NCBI GenBank assembly: GCA_905221615.1
Contig: CAJNDT010005445.1
Span: 921,153-985,152, forward strand
Source: Symbiodinium sp. CCMP2592
Taxonomy: Eukaryota > Sar > Dinophyceae > Suessiales > Symbiodiniaceae
Direction: 5' to 3'
DNA length: 64,000 nucleotides
A program made the position numbers and the translations under genes. Under the pieces are notes generated by a model. It did no database searches. It was not told the origin of the DNA and was given only the letters and a program-made list of their open reading frames with translations. Each line of letters starts with the position of its first letter. Position 1 is the stretch's first letter. Below are positions 25,641-64,000 of the stretch, piece by piece.

Positions 25641-26000
25641 TGAAGAAAGCCCTGAGTTGTGATGCGAAAGCCCTTGTATGAAGTAAGCACTAAAGAGTTG
25701 AACCGTGTAAAGAAGGTTGTGGAGCAGCCTGGTTCAGCGAGCTTACGTCGCGCTGTGCTCAAGCGGACATGGCTCGAGAAGAGCATGCACAGATGCATTT
25801 GCCATGATCGGCAGAAGCATGACATGTCAGGCGCAGCAGACAGCAAGCACTCATGTCCCTGGTGTAAAAAATTCGGAGGGTTGTGCGAGGGTTCATGGTC
25901 AAGAGCTTTGGGCCTAACCTCCCTTGGAAGCCTTTTGAACCACGTTCTTGAGAAGGAGAAGATCACCCTCGACCCCTGTGCAGAGTTCAGATATTCCACA
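25641..26000 (+). repeat. TE1 5' LTR
   Basis: 360 bp, begins TG and ends CA. It differs from the 3' LTR at three positions (gagTtgaac versus gagCtgaac, tgtCcctgg versus tgtCgctgg at one base, and ccttTtgaa versus cctCttgaa). It should hold the promoter and polyadenylation signal, but no TATA box or AATAAA can be pointed to, as is common in dinoflagellates. Confidence 0.95.
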
Positions 26001-26018
26001 GGTTATGAGTTCCCAAGC
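26001..26018 (+). promoter_or_regulatory. Putative primer-binding site of half-tRNA type
   Basis: GGTTATGAG follows the 5' LTR directly. It is complementary to CUCAUAACC, the anticodon loop region of initiator Met-tRNA. Drosophila copia uses an internal fragment of that tRNA and has GGTTATGGG at the same place. There is no TGG-type site for a tRNA 3' end. The gag ATG (26005) lies inside this site. Confidence 0.5.
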
Positions 26019-26772
26019 TCGAGATGCGCAAGTACCAGTTCTGGAAGGAGAGGCTTTGGGCCCAGCATATGGAGCTGTGCAAGAGGAGCCCCTCCGGATG
26101 AGGCCAGAGCTGCCCAACGGAGTCCCTCCCGGGCCGAATGGGCCAAGGAGGGTAGAAGATCCTTCAAGAATGGCTATGAACGCTGTTTCCCCAGATGTTG
26201 GAGAGCCTCGAGCGGGACACAGGACCCGCGCGGAGGCTGCAGCTGGAGGTGAGACGAGGCTGATAGAGCAGCCGTTTTTGTCTCCGGAGTCCACTCAGGG
26301 GACGATGATCAATGCCGGCCATGGAAGGCCTCCGGGAATAGGCACCCCGGAACCGGAATTGTCGCGCGACACTACGAGAACGCTAGACGTGGAAGTTATG
26401 TATGGTGCGGCTGGAGAGCAGGGGACAGTGGTCAGATGGGTCGCTCGTTTGACTGATTTTCTGAGGACAACGGCTACGGGAGCGGGTGGTTTGCAAGATA
26501 GGGTGCTAGAAGGGTTAGGGTTAACGGGAACCCAAGGATCTCCCTCACTTCAACAAACACTGAGAGCACCGCAGCAAGCACCTCAGCAACAAGTTCCACT
26601 GCAGCAGCTTATGCCGCAATCACAGCAGCAGCAGCCACACACGCCCCAGCGTCCTTCGTCCCCTACTACAAGACGACAGCTAGTCCAAGCGTTGAGCTTC
26701 TCACCACCGGAGGAGCTGCCAGGCCGCAAGGAACCCCAGGACTGTTCAGTGCCGAGCAACTTCAGAGATTGA
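26005..26772 (+). pseudogene. gag: TE1 gag, N-terminal part (frame 1)
   Basis: The likely start is ATG 26005 (MSSQARDAQV), four bases after the LTR. The frame encodes a Pro/Arg/Glu-rich N-terminus, a segment VVRWVARLTDFLRT near residue 150, and a Gln/Pro-rich stretch (TLRAPQQAPQQQ). It ends at TGA 26772. The next gag segment lies in frame 3 (its recognisable word is LFSAEQLQRLRALEMEAP), so the reading frame changes somewhere between about 26700 and 26772. I cannot tell a mutation from programmed frameshifting, but no canonical slippery heptamer is visible. In the family this region forms the structural particle protein. Confidence 0.7.
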
Positions 26773-27002
26773 GGGCTTTGGAAATGGAGGCTCCGACCCT
26801 TTATGGCCAGCCAGACAATGTGGGTTCAGCGTCTACGGCTTCTTCTGCAGTGCAAGCCGAAGTTCAACGTCAGCTACAAGAGTTCATGAACCAGCACAGA
26901 AGTGAAACAGCGAGCTTGCAGCAACAGGTGGAGCAGCTTCGAAGGGAGAGAGGAGACCTGCAGAGGCTCGCGGAGCAATCGAGGCTGCAGTCTCAACAAG
27001 CT

Positions 27003-27608
27003 CTACCGGGAGACGCACGGCTACCACATGGTGATCGGGCTTTGCAGTCTCAGCAGCTACATGGAGACGCACGGCTACCACATGGTGATCGGGCTTTGCA
27101 GTCTCAGCAGCTACATGGAGACGCACGGCTACCACATGGTGATCGGGCTTTGCAGTCTCAGCAGCTACCTGGAGACGCACGGCTACCACATGGTGATCGG
27201 GCTTTGCAGTCTCAGCAGCCACATGGAGACGCACGGCTACCACATGGTGATCGGGCTTTGCAGTCTCAGCAGCCACATGGAGACGCACGGCTACCACATG
27301 GTGATCGGGCTTTGCAGTCTCAACAAGTTCTACATGGAGATGCGCGGCTACCACATGGTGATCGGGCCTTGCAGTCTCAACAAGAGCTAGATGGAGATGC
27401 GCGGCTACCACATGGTGATCGGGTCTCGCAGTCTCAGCAGCTACCAGGAGATGCGCGGCTACCACATGGTGATCGGGTCTCGCAGACTCAGCAGCTACCA
27501 GGAGATGCGCGGCTACCACATGGTGATCGGGTCTCGCAGTCTCAGCAGCTACCAGGAGATGCGCGGCTACCACAAGGAGATCGGGTCTCGCAGTCTCAGC
27601 AGCTACCA
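27003..27608 (+). repeat. 54-bp tandem repeat array in gag
   Basis: About eleven head-to-tail 54-bp units, each coding for one 18-residue repeat. Early units carry ALQSQQ and late units VSQSQQ, so the array grew in at least two blocks. Two units have a 3-bp gain (VLHGD, ELDGD). All units keep the gag frame. Two other frames also stay open across the array because the unit is a multiple of three. Confidence 0.95.
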
Positions 27609-27863
27609 CAAGAAGATCGTCCCGAAGACCAGCAGTTACCAGGTCGTAGTCGAGATACCGGTGGTGAACGAGAATCAGGGCGCCGCGAAGATGAGGGGGC
27701 GTCCAAAGAGGCAAGTCGTTCAAGAAGTCCAGCAAGGGATGCAGCTCAGCCAACGCCGATGGAGTTGCTCGGGGTGATCGCCACGGGGATGCGACAGCTT
27801 CAAGAAGTTCAGCTGAAGCAAATGGAGCGAAAGGACGGGCCAGAGGTGGTGAAGCCTGGAATT

Positions 27864-27867
27864 TCCT
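27864..27867. repeat. Nested element target-site duplication, left
   Basis: TCCT precedes the left terminal arm and recurs at 32615-32618 after the right arm. Excising 27868-32614 and one TCCT joins the gag codons in frame. Confidence 0.85.
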
Positions 27868-28676
27868 CTTGCCTCTTGTTAAAGGATTTTTTTTAAATCC
27901 TGCTGTGTTTCGGCCTTCGACGCCTGGAAAAAGGTGTAACAAAAGTCTTGGGCGGGGCCTTGCTTTGACTGAACACTCACAGCTGGGGGGGTCATGAATG
28001 AAGCTTATGTATCAGCGAAAAATCACAGACAACCTGAGTTGTAGCCCATACTACAAAAGATAGAAATAGTTGGAAACCATTTTTCTAATATACTGTGTAT
28101 GTTTCAAAAAACATAAATGCCTATTTCGATTTCTCGAATGCAGGCAACCACATGTCGAGCACCAGTTTCAAATATTTCAGGTTATCGAATTAGGTTCGCA
28201 AATTCGTGGGACCACATCAAATGTCACAGAAAACAGAATTAATGCATTTCAAGTTGTTCTTTGTTTCATATGTGTTTCTGCAGCCACGACACGTGCACAC
28301 ATGCCATGTGGTTTCGTGGTTTTCAAGGCCCTATATTAATTCTTGGCTCGTATAATAATAGGCTTCTTTAAAATTTGCCAGGTTCGAGATGTAGGCCCAT
28401 TGCTTCATGAAGGTAGGAACAATAGCTTCTAGGTCATCTCACCCAAGGCTGGAACAACAGATAGATTCCTACCTTCTCCTACCCCCCTTTCAGACACCAC
28501 AATCCAAAAGCCCCAATCCCCAAAGCCCTAAACCCTAAGCCTAAATAACCCTATAAGCCTAAACTCCTAAATACCCCGCGTACCTTTCAGGGCCCTGCAG
28601 GCAAGCTCGGCGACAAGGCGAAGGAGATCAGACGGTGCCGCGAAGGCGCCAAAGAAAATGTGCCGCGATGGCGCAA
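27868..28676 (+). repeat. Left terminal inverted repeat of nested element
   Basis: Starts CTTGCCTCTTGTTAAAGG. It differs from the right arm by fewer than about ten substitutions and two homopolymer-length changes. It contains an 89-codon frame (28070-28339) mirrored at 32142-32411 with no recognisable domain, and a CCCTAAA-like stretch (28520-28560). Confidence 0.93.
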
Positions 28677-31845: not shown

Positions 31846-32614
31846 CCGTCTGATCTCCTTCGCCTTGTCGCCGAGCTTGCCTGCAGGGCCCTGAAAGGTA
31901 CGCGGGGTATTTAGGAGTTTAGGCTTATAGGGTTATTTAGGCTTAGGGTTTAGGGCTTTGGGGATTGGGGCTTTTGGATTGTGGTGTCTGAAAGGGGGGT
32001 AGGAGAAGGTAGGAATCTATCTGTTGTTCCAGCCTTGGGTGAGATGACCTAGAAGCTATTGTTCCTACCTTCATGAAGCAATGGGCCTACATCTCGAACC
32101 TGGCAAATTTTAAAGAAGCCTATTATTATACGAGCCAAGAATTAACATAGGGCCTTGAAAACCACGAAACCACATGGCATGTGTGCACGTGTCGTGGCTG
32201 CAGAAACACATATGAAACAACGAACAACTTGAAGTGCATTAATTCTGTTTTCTGTGACATTTGATGTGGTCCCACGAATTTGCGAACCTAATTCGATAAC
32301 CTGAAATATTTGAAACTGGTGCTCGACATGTGGTTGCCTGCATTCGAGAAATCGAAATAGGCATTTATGTTTTTTGAAACATACACAGTATATTAGAAAA
32401 ATGGTTTCCAACTATTTCTATCTTTTGTAGTATGGGCTACAACTCAGGTTGTCTGTGATTTTTCGCTGATACATAAGCTTCATTCATGACCCCCCCCAGC
32501 TGTGAGTGTTCAGCCAAAGCAAGGCCCCGCCCAAGATTTTTGTTACACCTTTTTCCAGGCGTCGAAGGCCGAAACACAGCAGGATTTTAAAAAAATCCTT
32601 TAACAAGAGGCAAG
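31806..32614 (-). repeat. Right terminal inverted repeat of nested element
   Basis: Inverted copy of 27868-28676, ending AACAAGAGGCAAG. It is followed by TCCT, the target duplication, and then by gag sequence. Confidence 0.93.
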
Positions 32615-32618
32615 TCCT
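32615..32618. repeat. Nested element target-site duplication, right
   Basis: TCCT, identical to 27864-27867. Confidence 0.85.
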
Positions 32619-33232
32619 CGCTGCCGTCACTCGAGCCCCCCGGCAAGGACACGAGCCCAGTGGACATCCAGGACTGGCTGGAGGAAGTGGGTTCGATCAT
32701 GGGAGACCTCTCCGATACGAGTCATGAGTGGTGGTCTGGCGTACGAGAAGTTGCACAAGATCATTACAAAAAGTGGGTCACGGCGACCCCGATGGAGAAG
32801 TTGACCTTGGCACTTCCGAAGGACAGCAAGCTGGAGCATGGGAAGTACGGCAGGGTCAATGCAAGGGCCGCTGGGATGATCTTGGGGGCTCTTCCCTCAG
32901 AAGTCAAGAGCGAGATGGTGACGAAGAAGGTCACTGGATCGTCGCTGTCCCTTGTGTTCCGGTTGCTCACCACCTACAGGCCCGGAGGCGAGCAAGAGAA
33001 AACGTTGCTTCTGGAACAGTTGACGACGCCAGAAGGGGCTCCTACCCCCGAAGCAGCGGTGCAAGCACTGAGGAAGTGGGGTAGGTGGTTCTCCAAAAGA
33101 CTTGACGGTGACGGTGCCAGATCCAGTGCTCATGGTGAAAGGCTTGGCGTTGATAGTGGCCCCAGTCTTGGTAAAGAACCAGGACGTGTGGCTGAGGACT
33201 ACTATGATGCGAAACCGGTTGCAGCTCGATAG
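32619..33232 (+). pseudogene. gag: TE1 gag core (frame 2)
   Basis: Resumes gag after the nested element and encodes the core with DWLEEVGSIMGDLSDTS, WWSGV, a Leu-rich helix and RPGGEQEKTLLLEQL. TE2 has matching words at 56776-57240 (WWQGVEG, QPGGSSERSHLLSQLVSP, LRKWQQGLQRA). Around 33093-33098 the run ccaaaag shifts the frame: with one A fewer the protein continues as WFSKDLTVTVPDP in frame 3, the frame of the next segment. The listed end at 33232 is the stop in the shifted, non-genuine frame. This is a probable single-base frameshift. Confidence 0.8.
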
Positions 33233-34823
33233 TAATCCAACTGAACAAACTACGTTGGATTTTCACAAGCACTTGCAGGCCGAAATGGAGCTGTTGAGCA
33301 CAGCTTCTTCCTCCTCTGCAACCCGGACGGCTCCGAGAATCAAGAGTGCAACCACAACGGAGTCGACCTCTACTACCACTCTACCGCAGGGGCAGAGAGG
33401 AAAACCGGAGAAAAAGGAGAAGCTGTGCAAATGGTTTGCGAAGTCGGATGAAGGCTGCCGCCGAGGAGCAGAGTGCCAGTTTCAGCATGATTGGGGAACC
33501 ACACCGAAGACAGGGAGATGCCTCACGTGCTCGGCTGTTGGGCATCAAAGGAGGGATTGCCCGACCAAGAAGGCTGGAGATGCGGCCCAGCAGTCCCCAA
33601 CAGCAGGCTCAGCAAAGGGCAAAGGAAAGGGAGACAAGGGCTCAGGCGCGCCGTCGACGTCATCGACAACCCCTACGCCGCCGGCAACAAGGTCGTTAGC
33701 TACGGGAAGCCCGCCGAAGGACCCGCCTCAGCCGGGCCCGGAACCCTCACCGGCAGGAAGCCCATCGAGTACGTCAAGGGACCCGCCGGGCGACCTTCAG
33801 CAGATCCTGACCGATGCCCATCAGATGCTGAAAACGATGATGGCGACAACGACTCCGGCGACTACCTCTACCACAACCGGGGCACCAACGTACGAGTCGA
33901 TTCAGCGCCAGCTTGACGAGATGAAGCTAACCCACGTGTTGAGACCCGCCAAGGACGAGCACGAGCACCTCACTAGCAAGGAGGTGCCGGTGGTTTTGGC
34001 GGGAGATGAACAGCGTCTTCTACGACAAACCCCCGCAGGGAGCATCATCCTCAACCCGAGCCAAGGAGAGGAAGCACAAACTATAATACCCCTGGGGAGA
34101 CTTGTTGAGTCTCTTGGCTGTGTTTTGAGGTGGACCCGCGGAGGACTATTGTTGAAGCACCCAAAGTACGGGACCATCCGTACGAGGATTCGCGCTGGCT
34201 GCCCGGAGATTGTGGACTCAGTGCAGGCTGCCATGTTGATCTCCGAGCTAGAGTCGCGGAAGCTTGATGAGCTACGACAGAAAACTGTAGACCTTCAGGA
34301 CCGCCTCAACGCGATCAAGATGATGGAGGTGAGGAATGAGGACTGGAGGCATGATTTGGCTGCCTATGCTCAGGAGGGGTGTGTTGTGGATGGTTTGCAG
34401 GCCCTCTACAAGTCCCCGATCTTCAAGCACCTCCCCGAGGACGTTCTGATGGGCATGGTCCCGCATGTGCAAGGAGACGACAAAGAAGGCTGGGAGTACC
34501 TGAAGGCCCTTCCGGTGTCAAGGAGGATTCGAAAGAAGCTTCTGCGGTCAAGGGCGTGGGTGCTCAACCTCTACGGGGGCCGGAACCTGAAGCAGGACCC
34601 GGTGCAGTCTGTGAATGGGCAGATAAACAAGGATACGAACTCCGAGGTGGTGGTCGTGAACGTCGAGATCCTCTTGGATGGTGGTTGGAGCGTGCGGGGC
34701 AAGGCCTACAAGGCGCTGATGTGGGCGGCAATGACCTCTCGGATCAAGGCTGTGGTGGGAACCCCGCCCGTGAAGACGTTTGAGTCTCGACCTTATGTGC
34801 CTCGAAGCGAATGGATATGTTGA
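33102..34823 (+). CDS. gag-pro: TE1 gag zinc fingers, inactive protease and methyltransferase-like stub (frame 3)
   Basis: 573 codons. Zinc fingers at about residues 108-155: a CCCH finger (C-x9-C-x5-C-x3-H, CKWF...CRRGAECQFQH) and a CCHC knuckle (CLTCSAVGHQRRDC). A Thr/Pro/Ser-rich linker follows. The protease region keeps LTHVLRP, VVLAGD and GRLVESLG, but the catalytic DSG seen in TE2 (VDSGATNALRP) is replaced by Asp-Glu-Met (33915-33923). Further on, WVLNLYGG and KALMWAAMTSRIKAVVGTPP recall motifs I and IV of a cytosine-methyltransferase-like fold, with Val in place of the catalytic Cys. The frame stops at 34823, where integrase to RNase H would normally follow. True translation would come from a gag frame upstream; the ATG at 33102 is nominal. 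Confidence 0.8.
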   Translation: MTVTVPDPVLMVKGLALIVAPVLVKNQDVWLRTTMMRNRLQLDSNPTEQTTLDFHKHLQAEMELLSTASSSSATRTAPRIKSATTTESTSTTTLPQGQRGKPEKKEKLCKWFAKSDEGCRRGAECQFQHDWGTTPKTGRCLTCSAVGHQRRDCPTKKAGDAAQQSPTAGSAKGKGKGDKGSGAPSTSSTTPTPPATRSLATGSPPKDPPQPGPEPSPAGSPSSTSRDPPGDLQQILTDAHQMLKTMMATTTPATTSTTTGAPTYESIQRQLDEMKLTHVLRPAKDEHEHLTSKEVPVVLAGDEQRLLRQTPAGSIILNPSQGEEAQTIIPLGRLVESLGCVLRWTRGGLLLKHPKYGTIRTRIRAGCPEIVDSVQAAMLISELESRKLDELRQKTVDLQDRLNAIKMMEVRNEDWRHDLAAYAQEGCVVDGLQALYKSPIFKHLPEDVLMGMVPHVQGDDKEGWEYLKALPVSRRIRKKLLRSRAWVLNLYGGRNLKQDPVQSVNGQINKDTNSEVVVVNVEILLDGGWSVRGKAYKALMWAAMTSRIKAVVGTPPVKTFESRPYVPRSEWIC

Positions 34824-35881
34824 TGCGAAAGTGGGGACTGGGCAATAAAGATGATCTACCACGAGGAGAAGACGCTAGCCCGGGAGTACGGTGCCTACAA
34901 GCGGAGGCAGAAGGAACGAAAGCCGCAGCGGAGCCGCAGCAGAAAGCAGCAAGCACCACCGTTACAGAGCTCGAAGCCACAAGCACACAGCACCCACAAC
35001 CAACAGCACTACAGCGCGTCAACAACACCACAACCACAGCCCACGGGAGGGATCTGGGTTGCTGTATGGGGTTATTGGTGTTAGCTCAGTGGTTTGTAAG
35101 CGTTCAAGGTCATAGGGTTCCCGAAAACGACCCGCTTCCGGAGCCGTTGTCGCTGCACACCCCTTGGGAGCTGTATGTGCTAGTCACGATGCTGGTGATT
35201 TGTGCTGTTGCAATCTGGGAAGGATGCAAAGGCGCAATAAGAAGCAGGTGCGACGTGGTGCGCCTAAGGAGCTTGGCAGGAGGACAAGATCGTCAGCGGC
35301 TAACGAAAGTTGAGCTGAGGACCTTGAGTGCTTTGCTGCAAAGGGATCCCGACACCCTCACCAGGGAAGAGAGACAAGATCTGATCCATTTGGCAGGTTT
35401 GTGTGGGTCAGATGTTTCTGAAGCTGTGGGGATGAACGTAACCGCTACAGAGCCTCGGCGAGCAAGGAAGCCCGTTTTTGAGGCCACTTGTTCAGCTGGA
35501 ATCCCGCCACCACACGACGAACCGTTTGGTGGGCCTATAGTTCCGGAAGCTGAGCCCGCAAGACTTACCAAGAAGAGCTCAAAGATCTCGGCTCCGATGT
35601 CGAGCTGGGAAGACCCCGCATGGACCGAGAGGCCCTCGCTGGCTCGGCGTCCGGCGAGGTCTCCAGACCCTCGCATGCGTGATGTGGCGATACAGTGTGA
35701 GCTCTTGGGAGATATTCCCAAGAAGGTGTTTATGACACCGAAGGGGACCTGTGTGCATGCTTCAAGGTCGTGCTCAACCTTGAACTCCTCGACGAGGTTT
35801 CAGGAGCGCGATGTGTGCCAGAGGTGCATCCGAGGCCAGAAAGAGGAGACCGAGCATCGCGGCTCGGACTGGCTGAGATGA
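34811..35881 (+). CDS. TE1 C-terminal membrane ORF
   Basis: A 356-codon frame overlaps the previous one by 13 bases. After a Gln/Thr-rich stretch come two hydrophobic segments at about residues 84-100 (CCMGLLVLAQWFVSV) and 116-135 (WELYVLVTMLVICAVAIWEG), probably membrane-spanning. Then come a charged linker and a Cys cluster near the end (FMTPKGTCVHASRSCSTL, DVCQRCIRG). I know similar TM-plus-Cys tails downstream of RNase H in dinoflagellate copia elements. Their presence here, directly after the methyltransferase-like stub, argues for internal deletion of integrase-RT-RNase H. Function unknown. Confidence 0.7.
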   Translation: MDMLMRKWGLGNKDDLPRGEDASPGVRCLQAEAEGTKAAAEPQQKAASTTVTELEATSTQHPQPTALQRVNNTTTTAHGRDLGCCMGLLVLAQWFVSVQGHRVPENDPLPEPLSLHTPWELYVLVTMLVICAVAIWEGCKGAIRSRCDVVRLRSLAGGQDRQRLTKVELRTLSALLQRDPDTLTREERQDLIHLAGLCGSDVSEAVGMNVTATEPRRARKPVFEATCSAGIPPPHDEPFGGPIVPEAEPARLTKKSSKISAPMSSWEDPAWTERPSLARRPARSPDPRMRDVAIQCELLGDIPKKVFMTPKGTCVHASRSCSTLNSSTRFQERDVCQRCIRGQKEETEHRGSDWLR

Positions 35882-54900: not shown

Positions 54901-55222
54901 ATTGGTCAGGTTTTGGGGTGTCGGGGGCCTTTGGCTTTTAGGGATCACTGCGTGTGAGTTGAGATCCCTAAGTACAGGCAGATGCACTTGTCCGACGGAA
55001 GGCTGTTTTGGCTGAGGAAAATTTCGAAGCGTTCGATGGAAGTTCTCGGGTGATTCAGGGCATTGGTCCTTAACATTTGAGGATTACCTTTCAAGGTTTG
55101 TGTTAACTTAGTTGGTTTGTCCCTTTATTTCACGTAGGTTATCAGCCGTAAGCTCTAAGCTGGGTTCTTAGTGGGACTAACGTAGTACTACTCTATTAAG
55201 GGGTGACCGGATTCTCGGAGTG
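54901..55222 (+). other. Probable TE2 leader / 5' LTR region
   Basis: Precedes the TE2 gag start. A 9-bp stem TTAGGGATC...GATCCCTAA lies at 54938-54970. The LTR borders cannot be set because the 3' LTR is outside the window, and no primer-binding site is recognisable. Confidence 0.4.
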
Positions 55223-56608
55223 ATGGACCCGATGACTCGCAAGCGTCGAGGAGCTGTGACTGGAGAATCTGAGGACACCAGTATTTCTCGTGAGAGTGCG
55301 TATCAAGCAGCCTTGAGTCAGGTAGAGGCCGGAGGGGTCTCTAGTACAGGGGGCAGTGGTCTCCCTGTAAGTGGCGTCAGACAGGGTGAGGCTTCGCCTG
55401 GAACGTTGGAATCAGGAGAAGCAATGGGTGGGGAAGGTTTGACCTATCCTACGCCCAACCCGTTTTACAGTGATCATGCCAAGGCGGAAATTGAGTTGCT
55501 TCGTAGCAGGCCATCGACATTGGATGCAGAGGCACTCCGTCTAGGTGCTGAGTACAACGAGTCTGCTCTCGGTGACACAAGCTTGACGGGAGGCCTGGGT
55601 GAGCCTAATTATGCCGAGGCGTTCGGAACGCTCGGATCTTCTCGGGATGTTCCCAGGGTTGCCCGAATTGAGTCTTCGAGTGAGGCAGCAAGGGTTGCTG
55701 AAGGCCGCCCAGAGGAGCCTGTTAAGGAGCATCTGGCGAGGGCTGTACCTCTAGAAGTCGAAGCTGTGACTGAGGGTGAGAGATCCAATCCTGGTGGGAA
55801 AGGGGGACCGATTGAGGGTTCCAGTGCTGCCGTAGGGAGCGCGGTAGCCGATGACCCGGAGCTAATCCCCGCGGAGAATGATCGCCTAACTAGGGTTGAG
55901 ACGCTGTTGACTCAGGTCTTAGAGGAGAATCGGTTGTTGAAGAGGCAGCTGCAAGCGGAGTCTAGTTCCAGTTGGCATAGTACTCGTACTCCGGGAGAGA
56001 TTCCAGCTTCGCCGGCGTCGTTCGGTCTCGGCCGACAGTTCCCGGAGATGATGTCTTCGGCGTTGCTTGGTGTACAGGCTGTAGGACCGAGTGTTCCTCA
56101 TGATTTCCCGGGCTCCTTGAGAGAATGGCCGAGTGGTGAACTGGTTACGAGTCAGGAATCGTCGCAAGCTCTAGCGAGGGCTAGGTTCCACCAGGCCCTC
56201 CCGGTTCATCCTTACGGAATCCCTACTGGTTTAGAGGGGTTTGGAGCGATGGGTATGAGTGATCGGATTGCTGCGGGGATGTGGCCGGTTTCGGGGGATT
56301 TGAGAGGGTCGGTAAACCCAAGGCCTCCTCCACTTCCGATTAAGCAGCCTGAAGGTGTGGGGTACGAGGTTTCAGAAGTTGTAGAGCCGACTCAGACGCT
56401 GAGACAGTTTGCAAGTGCAGCTTTGCAGGGAAGCCAGCCCACTGGAGATGGGAACGATGTAGGTTATCATACTCCTAGGTCGGGGTGTGGTGCTAGGGGG
56501 TTTGACGCGGAGGGGTATCCACTCTCCCCGGGTGGTTCAAGTATCAGACCTCCAGCAATCCCTCCTCCAGCTGTGGTTTCACCGCACCGCGTGTGTCGCC
56601 TCGTGTAG
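55223..56608 (+). CDS. gag: TE2 gag, N-terminal part
   Basis: 462 codons from ATG 55223 (MDPMTRKRRG; GTG 55220 is in frame just before). Ser/Gly/Glu-rich N-terminus, a coiled coil near residue 220 (LTRVETLLTQVLEENRLLKR) and a Pro-rich tail (RPPAIPPPAVVSP). After VVSP this frame runs into TAG at 56606. The matching continuation (PRVSPRVGPSVAGG) lies in the -1 frame, which is open from 56479. The overlap is therefore either a -1 frameshift signal or a one-base deletion. No canonical X-XXY-YYZ heptamer is visible near 56570-56600. Expected to form the particle with the downstream gag core. Confidence 0.8.
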   Translation: MDPMTRKRRGAVTGESEDTSISRESAYQAALSQVEAGGVSSTGGSGLPVSGVRQGEASPGTLESGEAMGGEGLTYPTPNPFYSDHAKAEIELLRSRPSTLDAEALRLGAEYNESALGDTSLTGGLGEPNYAEAFGTLGSSRDVPRVARIESSSEAARVAEGRPEEPVKEHLARAVPLEVEAVTEGERSNPGGKGGPIEGSSAAVGSAVADDPELIPAENDRLTRVETLLTQVLEENRLLKRQLQAESSSSWHSTRTPGEIPASPASFGLGRQFPEMMSSALLGVQAVGPSVPHDFPGSLREWPSGELVTSQESSQALARARFHQALPVHPYGIPTGLEGFGAMGMSDRIAAGMWPVSGDLRGSVNPRPPPLPIKQPEGVGYEVSEVVEPTQTLRQFASAALQGSQPTGDGNDVGYHTPRSGCGARGFDAEGYPLSPGGSSIRPPAIPPPAVVSPHRVCRLV

Positions 56609-59600
56609 GGCCGAGTGTTGCGGGTGGGCCTTCTGGTCCACCAAGAGCTCCGGGCCTTCCGGGAGATCCTTTAGGGAGAGGTTTGATTGGGGATGGTTCG
56701 GGGTTCCCTTTTGCTTCGGGTTGTTCGGGGCTGCCAGGGAGTCAGGGTGCCGTTGAAAGGCCAGAGGAGCCTGCTAAGTACATTTCGGACCTTCCTAAAC
56801 TAGCCCAAACGGATCTCGCGAGTAGTGCGGTCGTATGTGGAAATTGGTTAGCTCAAGTTAGGCAAGTGCTTGTGGGGCTTTCTCCTAGCGCTAGCGTATG
56901 GTGGCAGGGAGTAGAAGGTCCGGCCACATCTGCATACCGGCGCTGGTTAGTGGCAGACCCGCTAGGGCGTCTAGGAATCGACCCGTCGTCTGTAGTCGGA
57001 GAGTTCGATAGGCACTTGTATGGGAGGGTAGAAAGTCGGTCGGTGTCTTTGCTGTTGGCAGCGGTTCCGCAGTCGATACGGGATGATGTGGTAACCAACC
57101 GTTGGTTAAGTAGTGCGTCCATTTTGTTTAGGGTGCTCTGTTTGTTTCAACCCGGAGGTTCTAGTGAACGATCACATCTCCTATCCCAATTGGTGAGTCC
57201 TGGGGTTTGTGGTTCGTTTACCGAGGCTATCAAGGGGTTGAGGAAGTGGCAACAAGGGTTGCAGCGGGCGGGGGAAATCCACGCGACTTTACCCGACGCG
57301 TCGCTTCTACTTAGGGGAATAGATGGAGCAACCTCGGCATTGTTGACGGCGCACCCCATGATAGGATTCCGAGTGAACGCGTTTAGACATCAGCTAGCGA
57401 TCGATTACAACCCGACTGTGGCTAACGTTGTGCAACTAGTTCGACTAATCCAAGCGGAGTGCGAAGCTGCAGCGATTACTTCGGAAGGGACCCCGGATAA
57501 GAGGGCTAGGACGGCCGCTGTTTCTACCCCTAAGGAGCCTCCTCCTACTAAGGCCGTTCCTCCTTCTCCACCGAGTCAAGGGGCTGGGGTTGCGGCTAGT
57601 AATGCAAAGGGTGATCCTAAAGGGTTTGGTAAAGGGAAGGCCACGGATGGGAGTGCCCAACTCTGCTTCAAGTTCTCAGATGCAACAGGTTGCAAGTTTG
57701 GGGATGCGTGCTCGTTTAAGCATGATCGGGCAAAGGCTCGCAAAGAGGGTAGATGTCTTGCGTGTGGTCAGGCAGGTCATATTCGTCCGGATTGCAAACT
57801 CGTTGCTCCTGAGAACCGGCAAGTTTTGGCAGACTCTGGGACCACTCCTGAGGGTTCACCTAAAGCAGGATCTCCTAAGGGTAAGGGAAGGGCTGCTAAA
57901 GCGAAGGCAGCAGCTCAGGCCAAGGGGGTTTCTGAAGAACCCACTGGCAGTTCCGAAGCAGCGAAGGCTGCTTCAGCTTCGACTCCGACTGAGGGCGGAC
58001 AGGAGGGTCTGATCGCAGAAGCGGCTAAGCTCCTGAAGACCGTATCTTTGAAGGCTTTGAGGCTAGGTTCTGATGTTGAGGTTGATACCTCGTGGTTGCT
58101 AAGTGCCATTGCGGGACCTTCCGATTTAGCCTACGCACTGGTAGACAGTGGAGCAACCAATGCGCTTCGGCCAGCGTATGACGGAGAGTTGAGCCTCGGA
58201 AAGCCCATTAAGGTTGACTTAGCTAGTGGCGTAGCTGAACTGAGGGTGAACGAGTGCGGCACTCTTCTGCATGCTGGTCCTTGCCAGGTAATTTTACCTG
58301 CGGGGTATCTGGTAGAGCTTGGTTTTACTATCTCCTGGAGGAAGAGGGGGTGTAAGATTAGGCATCCTGGTAGGGGTACCCTGGAGGTTACGGTCGTTAA
58401 GGGTTGCCCCTTGATACCTCGCGAACTCGGTCTAGAGATTCTTGAAGAGTACGAAACCTTGAAGTGTAGCCGAGGAGGTCTGAAGAAGATTGGGCCTTTG
58501 CAAGCCGAACGTGGGTTAAAGCCCGGCGAAGTCCGGTCGTGGCTTAGGGATAAGCTTCGGAGTAGGGATGGTGGCTTGTCCAGAGAAGAGCAGTTTACTT
58601 TCCTTACGGGGCTGTTTCCTAGGGTACCGTTGGGTCTTCTAGAGCAGGTTTGTGTCGCTGATACAGGAACCGGACTTGTAGACTATCGCCATTTGCCGTG
58701 GAACAGGAGGCTGCGTCGGACAGTATCCCGGGCGAAGCCGGGGACAGTCATGATTAATTTGTCTCCTAAGCAGCCTGGTTGGAAGGGATCGGGTTGTGTG
58801 GTTTCGGTTGAGCCATCTGAAAAGGGGATAGAGTCTGATTCAGTGTTTCGGCAGCTTCTGGATTGGGCGAGTTCTGGGGCTATTGGCGGTGTGATAAGAA
58901 GCGAAGAGGACGCATCTGGGCGACCCGTAGTTTGCCACGATCAGGACTATTGGAAGGGATTAGAGGATACAGAGGTTGGTAGCACCTTGTCACGGGGGTC
59001 AGTTCGGATCTTCAGGGCTGTTCTGTTGTTTGCGGTAGCTCAGGCGATTTCGGACGGTCGGAAGCACCGAGAGGATCTGCATGAACCAGAGGGTGACGAG
59101 GGTTTTGATCCTGAGGATGTTCCCCCTACTGGGTTACGGGATCCCGCGGAGCTAGCCAAGTGGGCACTAGAGAGGGCGGCGGTTAGACTTAAGAAGAAGG
59201 ATCGGTCCGGCCGTGACACGGGAACATCAGATCCATGCTCTGTGTTCTTAGTTCTCGAAAGGCCTCGGGATCCAGCGGGTCGTTGGAGATCAGCTGAAAT
59301 CCCGTGGTTTTGGGCACCGGACGAGATTGAAGGGTTTCGTGAAGCTTATGGGTTGAGTGACGTTGTGTTTGATCAGAGCTGTCTTGGTTTGCCTGTGTTG
59401 GATACAACTTCTCTTCTTACCTCGTCCTGGCGCCTCTTTGAAGCTCTGCACGCGATCAGGGCTACCGAAGAAATGAAGACTTTCCTGCGGGGTCTTAAGG
59501 ACTTGAGGCTTCTTGCTGGCGATTATGGAAGGTCGGTTTGGGGCCCTGGTCTGTGCCGCGTGGTGCAAGGTGCATGGGCTCAGTGGAAGACTGAGATTTC

Positions 59601-62600
59601 TCAGACCGCAGACATCAGTGAGCGTCGTGTCCTTGTAGCTAAGCTTTCGGAAGCCGAGGCTCAGGCTAGGCATGAGGCACAGGACCACGTTCCATATCGT
59701 AAAGGGTGCCCGGTGTGTATTGCTGGGCAAGGCCGACAAAGAGCTCACTGGCGTAGCGGATTTCCGGACTTGCATTCTCTTAGTGTAGATATTGCAGGGC
59801 CGTTTGTTAATGGCCAGTCCTACAATGTCGAGGCTAGCGGCAGAGACAAAGGAAAGGGCTATCGTTACATGCTGGCGTGCACTTACGCGGTCCCCCTTAA
59901 GTTTAGTCCCTCTGTAGGCGAGTTGGACGATCTGGCTGAGTATGAGCCTTCGGAATGCGAACAGTTGATTCCTGTTGACGGCACGGAAGTGAACTCTTCG
60001 GTTGTGGCTGAATCAGGAACCGCTCAGGGTCTACTTGATGATCTCTGGGATTTACCGGAACCGGGGGAGGAAGCTGTGAAGGCGGTGACTCACCGGGTTC
60101 GACATAAGAGGCCGGAGGATTTGGACGAGGAAGCGGAAGCAGGGCCTGCTACTGTACCTGAGAAGAGCAAACATCTAACTCTGTTTATTGGGGTGCCCCT
60201 TAGGACTAAGAAGAATAAGGAGGTGTATCCTCAGATTCAGGGTGTTATTAATAGACTTGAAGCGGCAGGCTACCCAGTCCATAGGTATCATGCGGATCGC
60301 GCAAAGGAGCTGCGATCAGACATGCTCATTCGGTGGTTAAAGGAGAGAGGAATCCATGGGTCGTGGACGGCTGGTGAAAGCCCGGCAGGCAATAGAGCGG
60401 AGTTGGCAGTACAGGGTTTGAAGGGCTGTGTTCGTAAGCTTTTGAGGGCCTCAGGGCTTTCCAAACAATTCTGGCCCTTGGCTTTGTTGCATGCGTCAAC
60501 ACGACTGTGGATTCAATTCAATGAACGACTTGGGATTGTGCAGCCTAACTTGTTGCCTTTTGGGATTCGCCTTATGGCACGCAAGCGCGTGCGTACGGGC
60601 TACGACGCGCAATGGGAATCTAAGACGATTGAGGGCGTCTATGTTGGGCATGCTCCGAGTACGCCCGGAGGACATCTGGTGTTGGTACTGTCGGATGATG
60701 GCCATAAGGTGTTGCTCACGAATACCGTGTATCCGTTGCGGGCGGCTTCTGACAATCCTGTAAAACCTAAGTATCGACTCACCGGGAAGCATTCTTCGCG
60801 CTCCCCGCATTTTGTCGTTCGGGTTGTAGCTGCGCATGAAGTACCGGTTGTAATTTCCGACCAGGATGGGGCCATGCTTGGACCCAAGCCTGGGGGGGAG
60901 TCCTCTTTAGATTCTTTAGAGTTAGGGGATTTTGATGCCTGTTTTGAAAGCGATCTTGAAGGTCTAGGTGTATCCCTGGCTCCTGAGGAATTTCCTTCTT
61001 CCCCGTTTGACGAGGTTCTCCGGGAGAGCTGTTTCGAAGGCAGCGGGTTGTTTGAACCGGTGTTGAAATGTCATGGTCCGGATGAAGTTTCGGTCCAAAG
61101 GATCCAAGTTCCGCAACTCGATGAAGAGTCTTCTTTATGGATTCGGGGGAGACGGGAGGCTGAGGATTTTTCCGATGAAACGTGCTTGGAAGTATTGACG
61201 AAGGGTCTAGGATTATTGCCAGGGGCAAGAAGGAGGATGATTAGATCCGAGGGGAAGGCTGTGTTGTTGGGTCTGTATGGTTTGGGGGGTTTCCATGGTA
61301 TCTCTAGGGCAACTGGAACTTATGAGGAGGTCACACGGTACTTAAACGGGTACCTGGGTACTTTGGTTCCGGGGCACGCCTGGGCTGCGTTGTATGTTTC
61401 GAAGGATACTAAGGTTCCCCTACACAAGGACCTGAGAAATGCCACCCAGTTCGCGACGGCCGTTAAGGCCCTTGGTAGCTTTGTCGGTGGAGGTTTGTGG
61501 ATTGAAGATGAGAACGACACGGGGCCGATCTGTAAGCAGTTACCGGATGGGACTTGGCGCGCTGGAAGGGTCTATGATGTCCGAAGGGAAGCTCTTCAGT
61601 TCCAAGGGGATAAATGGCACACTTCTGAGCACTGGGAGGGAGGCTCTAGGTGGGTGATTTCGGCTTTTACCCCTAGAGATTTCGGAAGGACCTCTGAAGA
61701 GGATTGGGAAGCCCTGAGAGACCTCGGGTTTCCGGTTGACAACGTTTTGGGTGGGCTTCAGGGGGTCTCTGAAGTGTTGAAGAAGGCCGACGGAGCCGAC
61801 CAGAAGGTTTGGGAGCCTTCCATTGACCAGGAGGTTCAGTGGGAAGTGGGTTTACCGCAGCCTCTACTGGAGGATGAGCATCGGCAGGCTTTCGTGGTAT
61901 GGCATGAAAGGGTCGCACGGTTGAGTAGGATGTTTACCTCGGATTTGTGTGATGCTGTGGATATCTCGGAAGATGTTGGTGGAATCGCGGATCAATTGCG
62001 GGAGGTTGAGGTGTTAGCTCAGTGGTTGGAGTGTGGCTTAGATGACTGGGTCGAGCAAGGGGATTGTTATGGAGCGCTGAGGGCTCTTAATGTGGAAATC
62101 CCGTTGAACGATGGAGCCCCTACCACTGATGTGTTTCTGCAAACTCGTACCGTTAGCCTCGTAGAAGCAAGAACTGAGTTGGGATTGTGGAAGGAGCCTG
62201 CCCTGGATGAAGTGACGAGCTTGGAAACGACCAATCAAGCTGTTGATAGGGTCAAGGCCGCCCTAGTGGATCGGTGGATTGAGCAGGGTTACACCGTAAT
62301 CCAGTTACCCGGCAAGGCAGTCCTTACGAGAAAGAGTGGAACGGGAAAGCGCCGCCTGCGGGCGGTGTGTTGCGGAAACTATCTCCCTCCTGAGAAGCTA
62401 GGTTTATCAAAGGATGACGTTTATGCTTCCGGGGCTGAGGCAGTGACATTGCGGGTAGCCCTGGGTTTCGCATCGATTTTTTCATCCTGGACCGGGATAA
62501 CGATAGACATCAAATCAGCTTTTCTGTATGCTCCGATAGGTACCCGATCAAAGGAGAAGGAGGAACGCATTATCGTTAAGCCTCCGGCGTTGTTGGTTGA

Positions 62601-64000
62601 GTTAGGAGTGCTCGAAGCCAGTGACCGTTGGCATGTGCGAAAGGCGTTGTATGGGTTACCCACGTCACCTAGGGACTGGGGTGATTACCGGGATAAGGAG
62701 TTTAGGATCCTTACTATCCTCTGTGAAGGGGTCACCTATGGGCTGTTTCAATCGAAGTCTGATGAGTCCTTGTGGCTGGTTCAGCCTGTAGGTGAACAAG
62801 GGAAGGGGCCGATAGCGGGGTTGTTGGTTGTGTACGTAGATGATCTAGCTTTCTTCGCCTCTGCGAGCCTGTGCCAATGCTTCATCGACCAGGTTCAGAA
62901 GAAGTGGAAAACTTCCCCTCCCAATTGGTTTGGTGACGAGCCAGTTACTTTCTGTGGTGCTGAGGTGACCCGTTCAGCCCGAGGTTACCGGCTTACTCAG
63001 GTGTCTTACTTGAAGGAGCTGCTGCAGAGGTATAATATTGAGGGTACCGCGGCATCGCCCATAACGAAGTGGACGGAACCGCTGGAACAAGGAGTTCCCG
63101 ATGCTGGATTGATCAGAGAGGCGCAGGGCATTACAGGAGCGTTATTGTGGATCAGTACCCGATCGAGACCAGACATTGCTTACGCTGTTTCGCGTATGGG
63201 ACAGCAGGCGACTAAGGATCCGGAGTTGAGTATTGCTATCGGCAGGCAAGTGCTTCAGTACCTCAGCTCCACCTTGACGTTTGGGATTGAATATTTGCAT
63301 AAGTCAGGACCTTATTTTTCGGATCATGGTCAGTTGGCTGTACCTCGACAGAATAACGTTTTGGAAGTGTACTCAGATGCTTCTCACTCGCCGTGTGGCG
63401 GGCGCTCGGTACAGTGCTGCATTATTGGGTGGCGTGGGTCGCCGCTGGCGTGGGAAAGCGCCAGACAAGGGTTCACGACCCTGAGCTCCGCAGAGGCGGA
63501 GCTCGTGAGCATGATCCATTCGGTTCAATTGGGGGAATCCATCCAACCATTACTTCAGGAACTTCTTTCGGATGACTGTGTTATTTCACTTTTAGCCGAT
63601 AACGCCGCCGCTATCCGTTCTTTCGAAACGGCGCCAGCCGGCTGGCGTAACCGCCACCTGAGGATGAGGGCGCAAGCAGGCCGAGAACGAATAGAGAACA
63701 ACGTTTTGAAGGTCAATCACCTCGCTGGTGTGCACCAGGCGGCGGACATTGGCACGAAGCCGCTAACCCGATCCAGGTTGCTCTACTTACTTGACCTCAT
63801 CAATGTGCGAGACCAGCCAGCTTCACCAGAAACAATTAAGGCCGCGAGGGTACTGAGTCGTCTCTCTCGGGATGCTCAGGTATGTAAGGTGACGCCTGAA
63901 GCCGTAGCGGGTTTGGCGCTGTTAGTTGCTCTTCCGAAAGTTTTCGGGCAGCCTATTGGGAATGCGACGATTGGGCAGCGCTGGCTTCACTGGTGTGTTG
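56479..64000 (+). CDS. gag-pol: TE2 gag-pol polyprotein (open at window end)
   Basis: A frame of 2,507 codons without a stop, numbered here from 56479. Gag core ~100-330 (WWQGVEG, FQPGGSSERSHLL). CCCH finger (C-x8-C-x5-C-x3-H) at 396-415 and CCHC knuckle (CLACGQAGHIRPDC) at 427-440. Aspartic protease with VDSGATNALRP at 555. Methyltransferase-like region ~735-1000. Integrase with HEAQDHVPYRKGCPVC zinc site at ~1065 and catalytic D (SVDIAGPF, 59788), D (HADRAKEL, 60295) and E (NRAE, 60400). 2OG-Fe(II) dioxygenase-like domain ~1590-1735. RT with DIKSAFLYAP, ALYGLPTSPRDWGD and VVYVDDLAFF (62827). RNase H with YSDAS (63376), SSAEAEL (63493), LLADN (63598) and AGVHQAADIGTKPL. It makes the virus-like particle, cuts itself, copies the RNA and inserts the DNA. 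The C-terminus lies outside the window. Confidence 0.93.
58690..59470 (+). other. Methyltransferase-like region of TE2, motifs degenerate
   Basis: Between protease and integrase. WNRRLRRTVSRAKPGTVMINLSP stands where related elements have a glycine-rich SAM motif (HLFSG-like). FRQLLDWASSGAIGGVIRSE stands where they have GGPPC. FLVLERPRDPAG, IPWFWAPDEI, VFDQSCLG and TTSLLTSSWRLFEAL match the later conserved blocks. The catalytic Pro-Pro-Cys is missing, so DNA methylation activity is not expected. The comparison uses family motifs from memory. Confidence 0.5.
61246..61680 (+). other. 2-oxoglutarate/Fe(II) dioxygenase-like domain in TE2 pol
   Basis: Lies between integrase and RT. An H-x-D pair (VPLHKDLRN; H at 61423, D at 61429), a glycine turn (FVGGGLWIED), a distal His (DKWH, H at 61618) 63 residues after the Asp, and an Arg 10 residues further (GGSRWVISAFTPR, R at 61648). 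This HxD...H...R order and spacing is the signature of the double-stranded beta-helix 2OG-Fe(II) oxygenases (AlkB, TET/JBP, prolyl hydroxylases). I recall comparable HRD...N...GGxLW...WHA...R blocks in other dinoflagellate copia polyproteins. The substrate is unknown. Confidence 0.65.

Follow-up and report, generated by a model that had tools for sequence, protein, structure and literature searches.

Structure of the retrotransposon

The DNA analysed here is a 64-kb stretch of the genome of Symbiodinium sp. CCMP2592 (contig CAJNDT010005445.1, positions 921,153 to 985,152; hereafter the window), the last 9 kb of which is occupied by a single long terminal repeat (LTR) retrotransposon that runs on into the adjoining contig sequence (L009). 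Between the integrase and the reverse transcriptase (RT) of its polyprotein lies a domain, OX, with the predicted fold and the iron-binding motif of the 2-oxoglutarate (2OG)-Fe(II) oxygenases. The 188-bp 5′ LTR (TG...TA; 54949–55136, on the + strand like all coding features of the element) is 100% identical over its full length to the 3′ LTR (L009 3137–3324, equivalent to window positions 67137–67324, beyond the window), which is preceded by a purine-rich tract. The pentanucleotide ATCAC was read directly at 54944–54948 and again 3′ of the 3′ LTR, outside the window (L009), and thus stands on both outer flanks as a 5-bp target-site duplication. Together with the identity of the LTRs, this duplication suggests that the insertion is recent. 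The pol order of protease, integrase, RT and RNase H, the LTRs and the short target-site duplication are those of a Ty1/copia element.

ORF1 (475 aa, 55181–56608) overlaps the gag-pol frame by 103 nt in a different frame, and is 37–43% identical to the N-terminus of the polyproteins of five relatives. In the records of the relatives, the ORF1 and pol parts form one protein, against two frames here, which would be accounted for by either a frameshift mutation or a programmed shift. The gag-pol frame is open from 56506 to the end of the window at 64000 (2498 aa up to that point; its full length is 3407 aa, with the stop codon ending at window-equivalent position 66729). It includes a Gag-like region common to the relatives (56956–57471), recognised with a hidden Markov model (HMM) built from them, CCCH and CCHC zinc-finger motifs (57664–57798), located by motif position and matched by Pfam below cut-off, and an aspartic protease region with a DSGA motif (58102–58425). 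These are followed by an integrase region with an HHCC-like zinc motif and D, D, E motifs (59671–60645; motif reading and HMM from relatives; motifs starting at residues 1056–1298 of the pol frame), OX, an RT with YVDD at residue 2110 (62092–63285) and an RNase H region (63307–63693). RVT_2, matched by the RT, is the sole Pfam family passing its cut-off in the window polyprotein, and Pfam rve gave no match to the integrase region. A block of ~420 aa between protease and integrase (58426–59685, residues 641–1060) is present in close relatives and has no Pfam match. Beyond RNase H there is an extension of ~1000 aa with hydrophobic stretches (63694–64000 and L009 1–2729), and the related protein P0001 also has a long tail there.

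A 2OG-Fe(II) oxygenase domain within pol

An earlier, sequence-only reading of the window had placed a dioxygenase-like domain at 61246–61680, in a frame that it designated by position 56479, with an HxD motif, a distal His and an Arg 10 residues further on, in that order between integrase and RT. The domain, the frame and the residues were all found as described, although the domain is wider, comprising residues 1551–1747 (about 61156–61746, as delimited by alignment, structure model, PDB matches and profiles), and the open stretch does not begin until 56506. From the alignments, the HxD iron ligands are H1640 and D1642 (61423–61431), followed by a conserved N1645 at HxD+3 (motif 61423–61440), and the distal ligand H1705 (61618–61620) is followed at H+10 by the putative 2OG-binding R1715 (61648–61650). 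The AlphaFold model of OX (pLDDT 91.5, pTM 0.89) matches 2OG oxygenases in the PDB, and the double-stranded beta-helix of this superfamily is recognisable in the predicted model and its PDB matches; a predicted fold without that helix would have refuted the earlier reading. The model and the conservation described below confirm OX as a real domain of the polyprotein, beyond chance. Pfam searches with the window polyprotein and with OX alone found no oxygenase family, and phmmer with the single OX sequence against the PDB gave only chance-level matches. A first OX profile (A1) had no matches other than designed repeat proteins, aligned along a glycine-rich stretch, and these were taken as spurious.

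Conservation and fixed position of OX

Homologue searches returned 22 long and 20 short proteins, to which a wider profile added none (18 matches, all seen before). The HxD His and Asp and the distal His are kept in all 22 long polyproteins, as judged by eye on an alignment in which P0018–P0022 are near-identical. A search of the genome (1.098 Gb, 5383 contigs) for OX gave 4742 first-look candidates, of which 150 were scored, and 60 domains were sampled from those 150. HxD, Asn at HxD+3 and the distal His are present in 60 of the 60, and are the same in all 45 rows of an OX alignment, even where a row is only 23% identical to that of the window. Selection was examined in 57 element-type OX domains, including that of the window (1596 pairs). 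In the six usable pairs (unsaturated, with at least eight changes) dN/dS, the ratio of nonsynonymous to synonymous substitution rates, is 0.08–0.31 (median 0.22). The corresponding ratio of uncorrected proportions, pN/pS, is below 1 in 1592 of the 1592 pairs with enough changes, although these pairs are saturated and not independent. The four pairs with fewer changes have synonymous/nonsynonymous counts of 0/2, 1/1, 1/1 and 3/1.

In an RT search of the same genome (150 of 1463 candidates scored), OX was found among the listed matches 543–851 nt upstream, on the same strand, of 76 of the 78 RTs with an identity of 42% or more, a count that takes in the RT of the window. The two RTs without a listed OX come from short frames of 477 and 314 aa, and for four of the 80 oxygenase rows in this comparison no RT was listed. 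Nine further loci were examined, namely eight RTs of 33–40% identity and one of the two RTs without a listed OX. OX is present in all eight divergent lineages, with H, D, N and H kept in each and the integrase recognised upstream by profile in six; no OX was found at the locus of the ninth. The order integrase–oxygenase–RT was seen in all 13 database proteins in which the three domains were recognised by profiles (window included). OX and RT distances are correlated over 13 elements (Mantel r = 0.95). Inside the main lineage (11 elements) r is 0.56 and the trees differ, and therefore a single acquisition of OX with some later exchange is possible.

OX in other retroelement arrangements

A genome search with Pfam Tet_JBP (PF12851) gave four matches, all in one other type of retroelement. 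This second type (full copy L083, 805–8262; also L079–L082) consists of a weak recombinase-like ORF, a gag-like ORF and a pol ORF that begins with the oxygenase, and the three iron ligands are kept in four of four copies. The tyrosine-recombinase-like ORF of L083 gave only a weak match, to Phage_int_SAM_1 (E = 0.42). In its pol, OX is followed by a block with FSGTA...PPCGT motifs, an RVT_1-like RT (E = 0.012, below cut-off) and, by motif reading, an RNase H-like end. Motif reading also suggested a cytosine-methyltransferase-like stretch after OX, which found no support in Pfam and PDB searches. In P0018–P0022 (about 3155 aa), OX is preceded by the RT and also, as far as motif reading shows, by RNase H, and is followed by a domain like the RNA 2′-phosphotransferase Tpt1/KptA (PF01885, just above cut-off in P0018 and P0019, the two scanned). 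In P0014 (1440 aa) it lies ahead of a weakly matched integrase (E = 0.024). From these layouts, OX occurs in at least two kinds of retroelement arrangement, and probably in four.

TET/JBP-like and AlkB-like features

The 45 rows of the OX alignment were scanned against Pfam at E = 0.1. Tet_JBP was matched by eight rows (best E = 2.2e-5), AlkB-type families by none, and four families were matched in all. P0025 matches Tet_JBP at E = 6e-4 and P0017 at 0.088. Searched against the PDB to E = 10, a profile of the 45 rows matched just two sequences. Both are CcTet chains, and the alignment, at E = 0.38, covers the HxD motif. The top structural match of the OX model in VIA-align is NgTET1 (PDB 4lt5), at 15% identity or less, and the best named BFVD matches are JBP1/TET. 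NCBIfam and PHROGs gave weak matches only (most frequently phrog_6059, in 5 of 45 rows, best E = 0.019), and none of 28 pattern matches in IMG/VR was a relative by tblastn. On the other side, the window's own row has no Tet_JBP match, single rows weakly match 2OG-FeII_Oxy_5 (E = 0.023) and Asp_Arg_Hydrox (E = 0.043), and AlkB structures trail NgTET1 by only ~1 Z unit, which is nearly a tie. One further row weakly matches an unrelated family. No Tet_JBP match exceeds the curated Pfam cut-off of 34.9 bits, the best being 26.7 bits in the protein scan (in the second element) and 29.6 bits in the genome search; OX is therefore called TET/JBP-like here, and is not filed as a member of the family. 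The TET/JBP-type relationship put forward by the sequence-only reading is thus favoured by weak but separate lines of sequence and model comparison, with AlkB structures nearly as close.

The competing assignment, that OX is an AlkB/FTO-like demethylase of element RNA or cDNA that counters epitranscriptomic silencing or repairs alkylation damage, draws on that near tie in structure. It is set against the Pfam scan, and against the position of the Arg at distal H+10, which we take to be the spacing of NgTET1 and not of AlkB; we consider it rather unlikely. Presumably, the position HxD+3 is occupied by D234 in NgTET1 and by Asn in human TET2. The D234 alanine mutant of NgTET1 is inactive (PMC11404850), and Gly331 of CcTET, three residues after Asp328, helps to recognise 6-methyladenine (PMC12730594). 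OX differs from both enzymes in its conserved Asn at this position.

Host genome and remaining features of the window

A 21-nt query, which we take to be the dinoflagellate spliced leader, has 217 + 212 (429) matches in the genome, as opposed to 0 for the reversed control, which supports the dinoflagellate host assumed by the sequence-only reading. The spliced leader was not found within the 64-kb window. Further long open frames of 213–583 aa lie at 25939–28011 and 32591–35878, some overlapping on both strands, and may be remnants of other mobile elements. Rfam gave no match in the window. The CpG ratios of the element (0.77–0.82) and its flanks (0.69–0.71) are too few to interpret.

Proposed function and alternatives

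The fold (by model), the iron-ligand residues, their conservation and the fixed position of OX, and the recent insertion of this copy, are supported by the data above. We propose, with a probability of roughly 60%, that OX acts on element cDNA as a pyrimidine-oxidising, TET/JBP-like 2OG-Fe(II) dioxygenase, and that the dinoflagellate copia elements with this domain in their pol form a large and diverse group that has been active recently. OX would accompany RT and integrase in the particle or the pre-integration complex; that it adjoins both in pol argues for action there, and the same argument has been made for DIRS-borne DNA methyltransferases (DNMTs) (PMC5890265). It would oxidise the 5-methyl group of pyrimidines in newly made element cDNA, converting thymine to 5-hydroxymethyluracil (5-hmU), or 5-methylcytosine (5mC) to its hydroxymethyl, formyl and carboxyl derivatives (5hmC/5fC/5caC), such that the new copy may resemble host DNA or evade methylation-based silencing. 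As to the putative substrate, we assign about 45% to thymine in DNA, 30% to 5mC in DNA and 25% to RNA or other substrates. Thymine is plausible because 5-hmU is abundant in dinoflagellates, where it replaces 12–70% of thymine, depending on species (PMC6723414), and is enriched over most repeats in Breviolum (PMC11071213).

Several observations count against such an activity. The 5-hmU signal of Breviolum peaks over Maverick elements rather than over Copia (PMC11071213), and there is precedent for an RNA substrate in an orchid element (PMC9289625). The few usable dN/dS pairs are short: five of the six contain at most 14 changes, and two have one sequence in common. The sequence-only reading would have been refuted by a lack of conservation of the H, D, H and Arg positions in related elements; H, D and H are kept in the relatives examined, and so is the Arg in most of them, though not in the deepest lineages. 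Among the 22 database polyproteins, 19 have R at this position and 3 have K; the 60 sampled copies comprise 56 with R and 4 with M; and the eight deep lineages have R (3), K (2), Q (2) or D (1). A basic residue for the 2OG carboxylate is therefore not a general feature of OX. The four Met copies (L073–L076) are stand-alone, exon-like oxygenase copies and are possibly a domesticated gene family.

The absence of the Arg, with Q or D in three of the eight deep lineages and M in these four copies, is what would be expected if OX, in such lineages at least, bound nucleic acid or metal and had a structural or regulatory, non-oxidising role in pol. However, the window copy has the Arg, the Met copies are nonetheless constrained (dN/dS 0.05–0.14 over their six pairs), and the iron ligands are invariant in the 60 sampled copies, the eight deep lineages and the four copies of the second element, as iron chemistry predicts, making such a role improbable. 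Although retroelements do capture host sequence, and the dN/dS pairs are few and short, a functionless oxygenase fragment captured by chance is scarcely credible given dN/dS and pN/pS below 1, the same position in 76 of 78 related elements and an HxD, N and distal H identical in every aligned row.

Relation to known systems and implications

The proposed TET/JBP-like dioxygenase shares its fold and HxD...H iron site with NgTET1 of Naegleria gruberi and CcTet of Coprinopsis cinerea, and with NgTET1 also the Arg at H+10 (in the window copy, the NgTET1 spacing being presumed) and a polar residue at HxD+3. It differs from the two in its low identity (15% or less), in falling below the Pfam cut-off, in the Asn at HxD+3 and in being embedded in a polyprotein. 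Fungal DNA transposons and Helitrons likewise carry TET/JBP-type enzymes, in several element types, but as genes (PMC12730594), whereas OX is a domain inside copia pol; a 2025 survey reports TET/JBP genes in fungal DNA transposons, but no fungal retrotransposon with one. The LINE and DIRS elements of Symbiodinium, likewise retrotransposons, resemble the OX elements in their dinoflagellate host, in bearing a DNA-base-modifying domain and in purifying selection, but that domain is a methyltransferase (PMC5890265). Symbiodinium Copia lacks a DNMT according to the same paper, and the words TET, dioxygenase and JBP are absent from its main text; a later paper speaks of DNMT3 in two kinds of element, LTR Copia and DIRS, in streptophytes as well as dinoflagellates (PMC12344493). 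The Ty3/gypsy elements of Phalaenopsis orchids are also LTR retrotransposons with a 2OG oxygenase, one active in vitro, but of AlkB type, in an additional ORF, and in gypsy rather than copia elements (PMC9289625). Among the matches listed in an open-licence literature search there was no report of such an oxygenase in dinoflagellate retrotransposons, although an earlier mention is possible.

In the excerpts available, dinoflagellate 5-hmU is attributed only generally to TET-family enzymes, and no dinoflagellate enzyme is named (PMC6723414, PMC11071213). A bolder and decidedly speculative extension is that much of the thymine-hydroxylating activity behind this base comes from retrotransposons and not from a dedicated host gene. 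Element cDNA would have been the initial target and repeats at large a later one, and 5-hmU would have arisen as a side effect of an ancient counter-defence by transposons. Should OX prove active, an entire radiation of LTR retrotransposons would be equipped with a base-oxidising enzyme of its own within pol. The OX domains are concrete candidates for the enzyme that makes 5-hmU in dinoflagellates, and may bear on the origin of their unusual DNA modification. They also link the DNMT-bearing elements of dinoflagellates to the TET-bearing transposons of fungi, as mobile elements that have repeatedly recruited DNA-modification enzymes.
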